DNA of 64,000 nt from Geothrix sp. Lineage in GTDB: Bacteria; Acidobacteriota; Holophagae; Holophagales; Holophagaceae. How positions within the stretch are numbered: the stretch's first letter is position 1; every line of letters begins with the position of its first letter. Of the stretch, positions 20,492-23,743 are shown piece after piece. The stretch covers positions 1 through 64,000 of the forward strand of contig JAUXSE010000036.1 of assembly GCA_030681515.1 (NCBI GenBank), in the 5' to 3' direction. The notes below the pieces were generated by a model. It ran no database searches. It worked only from the letters and a program-made list of their open reading frames with translations, and had not been told where the DNA came from. The position numbers and the translations under genes are program-made.

Positions 20492-20699
20492 CTAGTGGCG
20501 CGTCCCCGAAGTGTCTTGAATGTTTTCGGCACTCCGAGACGCGCCACTTGCCGGGGGTTCGGGGGCGCGGCATGGCGCCCCCGAGGGGTGACAGCTCGAA
20601 AAGCATGGCTTTTCGGGCGCCAAAGGGGGCTTGCCCCCATGGAAGTGCGACATCCCCAGCAAAAAGTTAATTCAAGGAACTTAGGGGATGTCGCACTAG
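20492..20699. mobile_element. MITE-like element, 208 bp, with structured inverted ends
   Basis: The element begins CTAGTGGCG and ends CGCACTAG. Its outer 30 bases, read inward from each end, match at 23 of 30 positions. Each end also forms its own hairpin: AGTGGCGCGTC (20494-20504) with GACGCGCCACT (20538-20548), and AGTGCGACATCCCC (20644-20657) with GGGGATGTCGCACT (20684-20697). The stem bases differ between ends but stay paired, while the loop start (TCCCC-n-AAGT-nn-CTTGAAT) is conserved. Three further perfect hairpins lie between (20559-20584, 20597-20615, 20625-20638). No transposase is encoded. Its right edge supplies the TAG stop of the Omp85 gene. Confidence 0.6.
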
Positions 20700-23600
20700 A
20701 ACTGGAACCCGGCGGAAATGAGCAGGCTCTTCAGCTGGGTGTCCTGCTCGTCCTGAGTGCGGGGACGGCCCAGGATGCGCTTCCAGTCGGCGGCGTACTC
20801 GAGCTTGAGGGGGAAGCCCAGCTTGAGGATCAGGCCCAAGCCCAGGGTGGTGCGCAGGGGCGGGAAGGGCGAAACGGCCCCCGCCTCGGGGCGCAGGCTG
20901 CGGTAGACCTGCCCCGAATCCACGAATACTTCGGCCCACAGGCTCTGCATGCCGAATAGGGGGAAGCGGTATTCGAGGTTCACCACGGCGAGCGCCTGGC
21001 CGCCGAGGGGGATGGCCTGGAGCAGCAGGTTGCCGCTGGCGTCGGTCCGTCTCACCTCCCCCAGCATGTCCGGCTCCACGCCCCGCACGGTGAAGGAACC
21101 GCCTCCGAAGAACCGCTCGGACAGGGGCAGATCCTCGGCGGACTGGGCGGTGGGGCGCGCCAGTCCAAGCCGGACGCTGGCCATCACCACGCCGTTTTCT
21201 GCGTGAAAGCCCACGGGCCAATTCCACTGGTGGCGCAGATCCAGCTTCACGAAGCTGCTGTTGGCCGAGGTTCCCAGCATCTGGTTCGCCAGTTCCAGGC
21301 GCCCCAGGAAGAAGGTCCCCTGGGTGGGATCGTAGGGCCGGTCCCGCCGGTCCACGGCCACTTGCAGGTAGGGGGCTGAAATGACGCTGCGGGGGGGCGT
21401 CCGGGCGATGAGGAAAAGATCCTGATCCAGGATCAGTGGCACGCCGCTGCTATCGGTGTTGGCGGCCACCTCCACCCGTTCGAAGCGGTAGCCGAACCGC
21501 ACCGTCTGCACGGGGCTGATCTTCCATTCGAGGCTGGGCGTGAGGCGCCGGCGCCGGGCGAAGAAGGCGGCCTGGGCCTCCTCGATGTAGGCGCCCTCCA
21601 TGCGGAAGCGCGTGCGGGGGGCCAGCCAGGAGTCCAGGGAGCCCGGCATGAACCAGGGGTCGGTGTAGGTGACGCTGTAGCTGTCCACGGACCGCTTGAT
21701 ATCGCCCGTGGGGAAGGCCCGCCGCAGGGCGGGGCTGTCGAGGGTCTGGTCGCCCGCGCGAAGGCCGAAATCCACCACGCGTCCCATCCCGCCCACATTC
21801 AGCCGTTGTGCGTTCAGCCCGAAGTGGTAGCCCTGGGTCTTGTCGTAGCCGAAGGCCTCCGTGAACACCCATGGGCTGCGTTCCTGTAGACGGAGGGCCA
21901 GGTCGCCGCGCTGCCAGGGCTGTTTCTCCTGCCCGGAAAGATCCTTCAGCGTGAGCAGGTCCACCCGCTGGAAGGCCCCCAGGCCACCCAACTGGATCTG
22001 GCCCTCGTCGAGTTTCGCCGGATCCAGCGCGGAACCCGGCGCCACGGCGAATTCGCGGAGCACGGCCTCCGCCCGGGTCCGGTCACTGCCCTGCACCACG
22101 AGGCGGCGGGTCCGGTCCAGGGGCTGCGAGGGCACCTGGATCCGGACGATGGTCTGGATCTCGTCATCCTCAAAAGCCAACTTCACCTGCGGATGGGCGG
22201 CGCCCAGGGAGGACAGGCGATGCCGCAGATCCGACACCACCAGGGCCAGGTCATTCCGGACGAGGGGCAGCGCGGGTTTGAAGCTGAGGCGGGCACCCTG
22301 GGGGGTCGTTTCAAGCGTTCCCTCGACCCCTTGCAACGGGCGATCCGAACGGTATCGCAACGTCCCCGGCACGGAAACGGGATGGTCCGCCAGGGCCAGC
22401 AACAGGCTCTGGGCCAGCCCTTCCCTGGGGAAATCCGGCTCCTGGGGGAGTTCCAGCGCCAACGCGTCCAGGAAGCGGCGACGGCCCTCCCGGATGATGA
22501 GGCGCACGTCCACGGATCCGTCCTTGGCCGTGTCCACCCGGCGCCGGATGCGCACCTCTGGAAACCCCCGTTGCAGGTAGATGGCCGTAACGCGATCCTC
22601 CAGGCTTTTCACCGCCTCGGTCTTCGCGTGGGGCGGCAGCAGCAGGAACCGCCTGGGAAGGGTGGCGGCGGCTCGAAGCTCCTCCTCGGAGATTTCGTGA
22701 TTCCCCTCGAAACGCACCGTCCCGAGGGTTCTCCGGAGCCCACGATCCACGGTGTAGGTTAGGGTCACGGCTTCGGGCCGTTCGGCGGTTCCGGCGGTCA
22801 CTTCCCGGATGTGCGAAACCCGCGCTTCGGGGTAGCCCTGGTCGCGGAAGTAGGCGGTGATGCGGCCGTCGCCTTCATCCAGCAGGCTCGGGGAGTACCG
22901 CTCCGCCCGCGCCAGGGGCACGAATTCCGACAGGCGCGGCTGGGCCCACAGCCAACCGAACCAGCCCAGGCCCTTGGCCTTCAGATCCACCTTGGGGCCG
23001 GGCCGCACCTCCAGGATCAGGACATCTTCCGCATCCGGGGCAGGCGCCAGGCGGACGAAGCCCTCCAGCCGCTTGTTCTTCACGAGCCGTTGGCGCAGGC
23101 GGCGCTGGGCCTCGCGCAGGATCGTGGGCGTCCAGAGCGATTTCCCCGGCTGGAGGCCCGCCACCTTCAGCAGAACCTCCCGGGTATAGGGCGCCGTGTC
23201 CCCTTCGATCCGGATCTCCCGGATGAGGGCCGGAACCCCCAGCGACAGCAGGAATCGGAGGCGCCGTCCGCCTTGTTCCAGCACAGGCTCCACTCGGGCC
23301 CGGGGATAGCCCGCCTCCCTCAACCGCTGCTCGGCGGCCTCCTTGAGGGCCTCCAGGCGCTGGATCCCCAGGCGCTGTCCCTTGCGCAGTTCAGGAAGCA
23401 GGGTTTTACGGAGAACCCCTGGCACCGGGTCCCCCACCCAGTGCCATGAGTCCACGGGCGGAAGGGGTTCCAGGCGCACCCGGGCCTGGCCATCCGCATC
23501 AAGCCTCCCTTCCACCGAACGGAAACGATCCACCAGGCGGACCGCCGCCAGGGCCCGCTGGAAGGCCGCCTCGTCCACGGCCTGGCCCGCCCTCAAGCCC

Positions 23601-23743
23601 AGGGCCGCCGAGGCGAAACGCCGATCATCCGGATCTCCACCCTCGATCTGGATGGCCGTCAGCGTGCGCGGGGACACGGGCTCCTGGGCCCCGGCCGAAA
23701 CCAGGGCCAGGAAGCCATACCCCAACGCGGCACGGAGACGCAC
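20696..23743 (-). CDS. Omp85/BamA-family outer-membrane assembly protein, extended
   Basis: A 1015-residue outer-membrane protein, longer than E. coli BamA (~800). A signal peptide (ALGYGFLALVSAGAQ) is followed by several POTRA-like units over about residues 27-600 (for example IREIRIEGD, LGTVRFEGNHEISEEEL, TRRLVVQGSDRT). A C-terminal barrel carries the Omp85 motif RFFGGGSFTVRGV near residue 874 and ends in Phe (GFQF), the outer-membrane targeting signal. It may be the main BamA, or a TamA-like paralogue; the extra POTRAs leave this open. The gene starts four bases after the STAS gene stop. Confidence 0.85.
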   Translation of the reverse strand: MRLRAALGYGFLALVSAGAQEPVSPRTLTAIQIEGGDPDDRRFASAALGLRAGQAVDEAAFQRALAAVRLVDRFRSVEGRLDADGQARVRLEPLPPVDSWHWVGDPVPGVLRKTLLPELRKGQRLGIQRLEALKEAAEQRLREAGYPRARVEPVLEQGGRRLRFLLSLGVPALIREIRIEGDTAPYTREVLLKVAGLQPGKSLWTPTILREAQRRLRQRLVKNKRLEGFVRLAPAPDAEDVLILEVRPGPKVDLKAKGLGWFGWLWAQPRLSEFVPLARAERYSPSLLDEGDGRITAYFRDQGYPEARVSHIREVTAGTAERPEAVTLTYTVDRGLRRTLGTVRFEGNHEISEEELRAAATLPRRFLLLPPHAKTEAVKSLEDRVTAIYLQRGFPEVRIRRRVDTAKDGSVDVRLIIREGRRRFLDALALELPQEPDFPREGLAQSLLLALADHPVSVPGTLRYRSDRPLQGVEGTLETTPQGARLSFKPALPLVRNDLALVVSDLRHRLSSLGAAHPQVKLAFEDDEIQTIVRIQVPSQPLDRTRRLVVQGSDRTRAEAVLREFAVAPGSALDPAKLDEGQIQLGGLGAFQRVDLLTLKDLSGQEKQPWQRGDLALRLQERSPWVFTEAFGYDKTQGYHFGLNAQRLNVGGMGRVVDFGLRAGDQTLDSPALRRAFPTGDIKRSVDSYSVTYTDPWFMPGSLDSWLAPRTRFRMEGAYIEEAQAAFFARRRRLTPSLEWKISPVQTVRFGYRFERVEVAANTDSSGVPLILDQDLFLIARTPPRSVISAPYLQVAVDRRDRPYDPTQGTFFLGRLELANQMLGTSANSSFVKLDLRHQWNWPVGFHAENGVVMASVRLGLARPTAQSAEDLPLSERFFGGGSFTVRGVEPDMLGEVRRTDASGNLLLQAIPLGGQALAVVNLEYRFPLFGMQSLWAEVFVDSGQVYRSLRPEAGAVSPFPPLRTTLGLGLILKLGFPLKLEYAADWKRILGRPRTQDEQDTQLKSLLISAGFQF

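Follow-up and report, generated by a model that had tools for sequence, protein, structure and literature searches.

The 208 bp at positions 20492-20699 of the window, the whole 64,000-nt stretch of Geothrix DNA analysed here, probably (at about 0.8) represent a non-autonomous Geothrix MITE of the IS630 (Tc1/mariner) type, 202 bp in length, which would have entered the TA of a pre-existing CTAG and duplicated that TA. Sequence comparison established that the element is multi-copy with precise boundaries, that its sites occur empty with a single CTAG, that tandem copies share a CTAG, and that the ends of several subfamilies are common to IS630 elements. The preliminary description had proposed a MITE-like, non-autonomous 208-bp element moved in trans, and this proposal is supported by the multiple copies, the lack of a transposase of its own and the IS630 ends in congeners. 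As it is short, multi-copy and without an internal transposase gene, and appears RUP-like in mechanism, the element is best filed as an IS630-type MITE. Our literature search found no paper on this element family.

Boundaries, copies and insertion sites

The stretch 20492-20699 forms a discrete element with inverted matching ends, each of which carries its own hairpin. The two ends (20492-20521 and 20670-20699) are 77% complementary, in agreement with the 23 of 30 positions reported earlier to match when both are read inward. The element proper, GTG...CAC, occupies 20495-20696 (202 bp) with a TA on either side; these limits were derived by aligning 6 near copies and 26 members of the family, and from the empty sites and the variation of the outer bases. 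The left TA of the target duplication (20493-20494) lies inside the CTAG at 20492-20495, and the right TA (20697-20698) inside the CTAG at 20696-20699, where it belongs to the TAG stop codon of the host gene, read on the minus strand. This gene is an open reading frame of 1015 aa on the minus strand (20696-23743), which the preliminary description named Omp85. The left (20495-20521, plus strand) and right (20670-20696, minus strand) terminal inverted repeats were matched against each other, with CTAG counted in the 23/30, and follow the consensus CTAGTG-N10-KAARTDNCTKGAWY.

The left terminal hairpin (20494-20548) has an 11-bp outer stem (20494-20504/20538-20548). It is followed by core hairpin 2 (20559-20584), with a perfect 10-bp stem (20559-20568/20575-20584) detected by inverted-repeat search and covariation, and by the conserved box GGGGTGACAGC (20585-20595, plus strand), which hardly varies among 32 cores taken from Acidobacteriota, Omnitrophota, Margulisbacteria and UBA9089. 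Core hairpin 3 (20594-20618; 11-bp stem 20594-20604/20608-20618) is very variable in sequence and still paired. The conserved box GCGCCAAAGGGGGC-TT-GCCCCCATGG (20618-20643, plus strand) was recognised by conservation among cores and includes hairpin 4, GGGGGC-TT-GCCCCC (20626-20639). The right terminal hairpin (20644-20697) has a perfect 14-bp stem (20644-20657/20684-20697). Three inner hairpins had been described as perfect; this is correct for two of them, but the third, hairpin 3, has one mismatch in the window copy.

In the own genome (3.2 Mb, 66 contigs), the search returned 6 copies of the window subfamily with 83-100% identity and more than 12 diverged copies, and a covariance model of the core gave 22 matches. 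Several contigs of this genome end inside the element, which is expected because it is a repeat. Matches at E < 1e-7 were present in 26 of 47 genomes of the genus. The preliminary description had named a single copy without homologues, or ends not conserved elsewhere, as contrary to its proposal; instead, copies are multiple (about 22 in the own genome) and their ends are conserved at other loci. The subfamilies are 30-40% different and retain the length (mostly 203-208 bp), the ends and the layout; several carry optional inserts, namely a 36-nt hairpin near the right side or about 70 nt inside hairpin 2. The copies of one young subfamily (L009, L010 and the contig ends C10, C46 and C48) are 98-100% identical, which suggests recent movement. 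L009 and L010 have a left flank in common over 194 bp (193 identical) and different right flanks, and contig C17 ends there; this is likely an assembly join through the repeat, or recombination.

Empty sites were searched by joining the two flanks of an insertion with a single CTAG and querying the result against the genus. Such sites were found for four insertions: L002 in L104; L005 in L107, L109 and L117; L006 in L103; and L011 in its own paralogue L102. The empty sites that the preliminary description had proposed to look for in relatives thus exist, and each reads a single CTAG where the occupied site has CTAG-element-CTAG. Tandem copies occur as two pairs in G048 (L154 and L155), and the members of each pair have one CTAG in common. 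Among 75 unique full-length insertions, counted manually after excluding one row whose end was misplaced, 60 have CTAG on both sides; the remainder deviate at the outer base in 13 instances and at the base within the element in 2, a pattern that fits duplication of TA in a preferred CTAG. The TA target duplication of an IS630-type MITE is accordingly supported both by the empty sites and by the outer and inner variation.

The TAG stop codon of the Omp85 gene is at 20696-20698. G054 and G016 end the same gene at the same CTAG without the element, and most other relatives end it with TGA. It follows from the CTAG stop in these two genomes and the empty sites that the stop preceded the insertion and was regenerated by it. 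The earlier statement that the right end of the element supplies this TAG is thus correct as to the stop codon, but the codon is part of the target and pre-existing. CTAG is strongly avoided in the window: base composition predicts 188 sites, and 16 are present. At 34 of 47 insertions, at least one long open frame ends exactly at the element's TAG (both in 12), and 8 of the 14 window CTAG sites outside the element coincide with the end of an open frame of 100 codons or more, on one strand or on both. Because about half of the ordinary CTAG sites in the window also end long frames, the concentration of insertions at stop codons needs no extra explanation. Judged by flank sequence, members of different subfamilies seem to have inserted independently at one orthologous gene end in two genomes (L005 and L042); the L042 insertion used TTAG, which is present in the relatives L110 and L114.

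In the proposed mechanism, an IS630 transposase supplied in trans would act on the inverted repeats and excise the element, which would then be pasted into a TA, preferentially within CTAG. CTAG is a rare, strongly avoided sequence in this genome, and many of the sites that are left are gene stops, sometimes those of two convergent genes at once. Since CTAG would be regenerated on both sides, both genes would keep their stop and the insertion would be nearly neutral. This insertion rule, in which entry at the TA within CTAG restores the stop of one or two genes, would provide a simple reason for harmless build-up at gene ends.

Conserved fold and cross-phylum core

Compared with dinucleotide shuffles, both strands of the element show much stronger folding (z = -7.2 and -8.6; 0 of 200 shuffles). 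Covariation was assessed using 26 members and 43 pairs in 6 counted helices, with hairpin 3 counted as two. Pairing was kept in 96.9% of the cells despite the stem differences between copies, compared with only 38-51% when the partners were slid by 1-3 columns. In 17 of the 43 pairs both sides had changed, in line with the earlier remark that the stems differ yet stay paired, and double-changed cells numbered 77 versus about 20 in column shuffles, which leave the relatedness among members in place. The compensatory changes were spread over both terminal hairpins (6 of 10 pairs changed on both sides in helix 1 on the left, and 5 of 11 in helix 6 on the right) and hairpin 3 (helices 3 and 4), and over several subfamilies, for example L036 and L041. 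At the level of the aligned sequences, these data demonstrate a conserved helix set with three regions kept by compensatory change.

Folding was seen for the MITE ends (z -1.7 to -7.1) but not for those of the IS630 partners (z about 0), so it is the MITE that contributes the second arm of each terminal hairpin. No T run follows the terminal hairpins, and intrinsic termination is therefore an unlikely role. Translation and intrinsic termination were both considered less likely than a structural role, and the fold would most likely act structurally, in transposition or in shielding the flanking messages. With less confidence, the hairpins and the core may be kept because they help the element to multiply or persist, in which case the terminal hairpins and core would act as a folded single strand, either DNA or transcript.

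MITEs are usually viewed as passive deletion derivatives that have only their ends in common with a transposon. Here, the interior is better conserved than the ends; compensatory change maintains it, and it is found again in unrelated phyla in another insertion context. This makes a testable case for some MITEs carrying a functional folded module. IS630 elements were not seen to contain the core, so the element is not a simple deletion derivative.

The core of about 100 bp, GGGGTGACAGC-hairpin-GCGCCAGAGGGGC-loop-GCCCCTATGG, or with ambiguity GGGGTRACAGC-hairpin-GCGCCAKAGGGGC-loop-GCCCCTWTGG, recurs in conserved form not only in other Acidobacteriota but also in Omnitrophota, Margulisbacteria and UBA9089. 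When 84,980 genomes were scanned once with the pattern GGGGTGACAGC-N16-28-GCGCCARAGGGG, 90 stretches were returned, mostly from Holophagaceae; outside this family, many Omnitrophota had matches, Velamenicoccus archaeovorus among them, as did UBA9089, a single Marinamargulisbacteria and a single Myxococcales contig. The similarity extends well past the pattern and also covers the last hairpin, the TATGG and, ahead of the first box, a hairpin rich in G. The covariance model (E up to 1e-5) matched 35 of 193 Omnitrophota genomes, some with 10-15 copies, and 16 of 297 Acidobacteriota genomes from three families. In another Acidobacteriota family (L350-L353 and L356), the arrangement matches that of the Geothrix element, namely CTAG or a variant, hairpin, core, hairpin and CTAG, but the stems are completely different. 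Omnitrophota copies of the core are typically found immediately downstream of tRNA genes, and therefore the core is not tied to IS630-type ends. At several of these loci it is followed by a partial copy (17-55 bp) of the tRNA 3' end, which sometimes carries a small hairpin in the T loop; some loci, such as L233, have no nearby tRNA.

Cores near tRNA genes, mostly downstream of them, were noted in Omnitrophota and Marinamargulisbacteria at L217, L228, L229, L231, L244, L245, L247 and L261, and further at L267, L299, L316, L327, L332, L334 and L337; at L245, the core is tandem and close to the tRNA gene. In UBA9089, shortened cores form tandem arrays (L266, 5940-6193; L318; L326) spaced by a TTGCTGACA..TGTCAGC-like hairpin, and the genome with these arrays has 14 core matches. 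The copy at L255, on the Myxococcales MAG contig JAUXRI010000177.1, is almost identical to a Geothrix subfamily, which may be due to horizontal transfer or mis-binning.

A search of Rfam 15 at a permissive threshold gave only a chance match to HOTTIP_3 (E 0.22, far under the gathering score), and in ten related loci scanned at the gathering threshold the sole matches were tRNA, RNase P and a group I intron, with no family matching the core. The phage and viral contigs searched for the element contained no match. Plasmid matches were short, covering mainly the last hairpin in Pseudomonas pPFS and single GC-rich hairpins in Streptomyces and Agrobacterium, and the genes beside the Streptomyces match had no Pfam match. 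Since the plasmid matches are short and phage or viral matches were none, a reading of the core as an oriT is unsupported.

Putative mobilising transposase

A REP- or IS200-type enzyme had been suggested as the mobiliser, and this suggestion did not hold. The own genome (99.5% complete) has no match to the Y1 transposase (PF01797), which is also absent in 23 of the 25 genus genomes of the first screen, including 9 of the 10 element carriers there; of the two genomes with it, one carries the element. The end-matched transposase that was found belongs instead to the IS630 family (DDE, TA duplication).

The inverted-repeat pattern led to a contig end in G015, where an end is followed by a reading frame resembling an IS630-type C-terminus. 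An independent search with PF13358 identified related IS630-family elements in G013, G015, G016 and G056. The locus L159 in G056 is a complete IS630 element, with CTAGTG(A/T)AGGCCG(C/T)CAGAAATAC at both ends and a transposase of 378 aa (NCBIfam transpos_IS630, E 4.8e-75); IS630 transposases with MITE-like ends are thus present at L159 (complete, both ends), L161 and L162. In L159, a passenger GxxExxY gene (PD-(D/E)XK superfamily) lies at 710-1159 between the transposase and one end, and in L162, near 1354, the terminal CTAG of the element itself holds the TAG at which the IS630 transposase frame stops.

For four of the five MITE ends tested, the four IS630 ends ranked first among 34,574 windows of 31 nt, and the best match (26/31) was given by L348, a MITE of a sister genus. 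The left end of the window copy matches the known IS630 ends at 17 of 31 positions, against 18 by chance, which is no better than background, so the filing of this copy as IS630-type rests on the other subfamilies. Terminal inverted repeats common to transposase-bearing IS630 elements were thus found for the family, with the ends of the window subfamily too diverged for a direct demonstration. An end-matched IS630 element was not found in the own assembly, although the near-identical copies point to recent movement. The sole IS630 element of this genome, L156, was rejected as the partner; its ends, AACATAGCGTC, do not match the element. Further matches of the terminal-repeat pattern (L144, L145, L146 and L149) were also set aside, being single unpaired or degenerate ends with no transposase recognised in the stretch viewed.

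For the studied IS630 member ISY100, the target is almost exclusively TA, which becomes duplicated (PMC2170065). The putative partner resembles ISY100/IS630 in its same-family DDE transposase, TA duplication and imperfect inverted repeats of comparable length (PMC2170065). Unlike IS630 insertion sequences, the Geothrix element encodes nothing, and the partner ends are without a terminal hairpin.

Alternative readings and known repeats

A MITE with a true 4-bp duplication of CTAG/YTAR, moved by an IS5- or IS701-like DDE transposase, is improbable. All the empty sites and the 60 of 75 insertions between two CTAGs are compatible with duplication of CTAG, which is a palindrome, and the two insertions flanked by GTAG/GTAG are better explained by a 4-bp duplication; the exceptions mostly favour duplication of TA only. 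MITEPsy1 of Pseudomonas syringae is a precedent, as it targets CTAG or YTAA with a 4-nt duplication (PMC3189936). It resembles the Geothrix element as a small MITE entering CTAG (PMC3189936), but it is 100 nt long, has ends probably of the IS5 family and duplicates 4 nt. Variation affects the outer bases in 13 cases and the inner ones in 2, the GTAG/CTAG, TTAG/CTAG and ATAG/CTAA cases would each require extra mutations, and at the TTAG case (L042) the relatives' gene end, apparently orthologous by its flanks, already reads TTTAG. The match of element ends to IS630 elements also argues against this reading. It is very unlikely that the hairpins are a non-mobile regulatory pair of the host, stabilising the 3' ends of mRNAs between convergent genes. 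The hairpins do start right at stop codons and many copies lie at gene ends; however, the target choice explains this position, because about half of the ordinary CTAG sites in the window end long frames, and the insertion polymorphism between species, the tandem nesting and the near-identical young copies indicate mobility, with the examined sites empty in the relatives compared.

The reading as a REP/BIME-like or IS200/IS605-type single-strand element, with the 5' CTAG hairpins as REP-like units for a Y1 (RAYT) transposase, is largely refuted and has almost no probability left. The tetranucleotide at the foot of both ends and the covarying stems resemble REPs with a GT(A/G)G head, and REP/BIME with RAYT likewise have inverted hairpins and an extragenic position (PMC2817692). 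However, the tetranucleotide is CTAG (on both sides in 60/75 insertions) instead of GT(A/G)G, the unit is fixed at 200 bp with a long core, the long symmetrical inverted repeats extend into the loops, and the Y1 enzyme is missing as described above, whereas the transposase that does have matching ends is from another family. It is a tentative possibility, compatible with the IS630-type MITE, that the core is primarily a conserved RNA or ssDNA structure rather than a transposon, travelling as a passenger of several unrelated mobile systems: the IS630-type MITE in Acidobacteriota and tRNA-adjacent elements in Omnitrophota and others. In its favour, the core is nearly invariant across phyla while the terminal arms vary by lineage, some Omnitrophota genomes have up to 15 copies, and these copies typically lie 3' of tRNA genes, several with the 17-55 bp duplicates of the tRNA 3' end; against it, the core has no Rfam match, and the IS630 explanation for the movement of the Geothrix copies is left uncontradicted. 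The core might, on a similarly speculative footing, belong to an undescribed cross-phylum family of structured mobile modules, in which a core of about 100 bp with variable self-paired arms would act as folded RNA or ssDNA with lineage-specific mobilisers. These would be IS630-type ends at CTAG in Acidobacteriota and tRNA 3'-end integration in Omnitrophota, Margulisbacteria and others.

The Caulobacter/Brucella intergenic repeats (CIR) resemble the IS630-type MITE described here in having two long hairpin arms with a linker, a terminal TA and a conserved structure (PMC2229807). They are, however, listed without a terminal inverted repeat between the ends and with no transposase assigned; the likeness is in shape only. 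The repeat unit of pneumococcus (RUP) is an accepted IS630-type MITE mobilised by IS630-Spn1, and like the Geothrix element it is a short intergenic repeat with IS630-like ends and a TA target (PMC2229807). The covarying end hairpins and the cross-phylum core set the element apart from RUP, and the core deserves follow-up: RUP is 107 bp, whereas the Geothrix element, at 202 bp, has two ends that each fold on themselves, three hairpins between them and a core common to other phyla.
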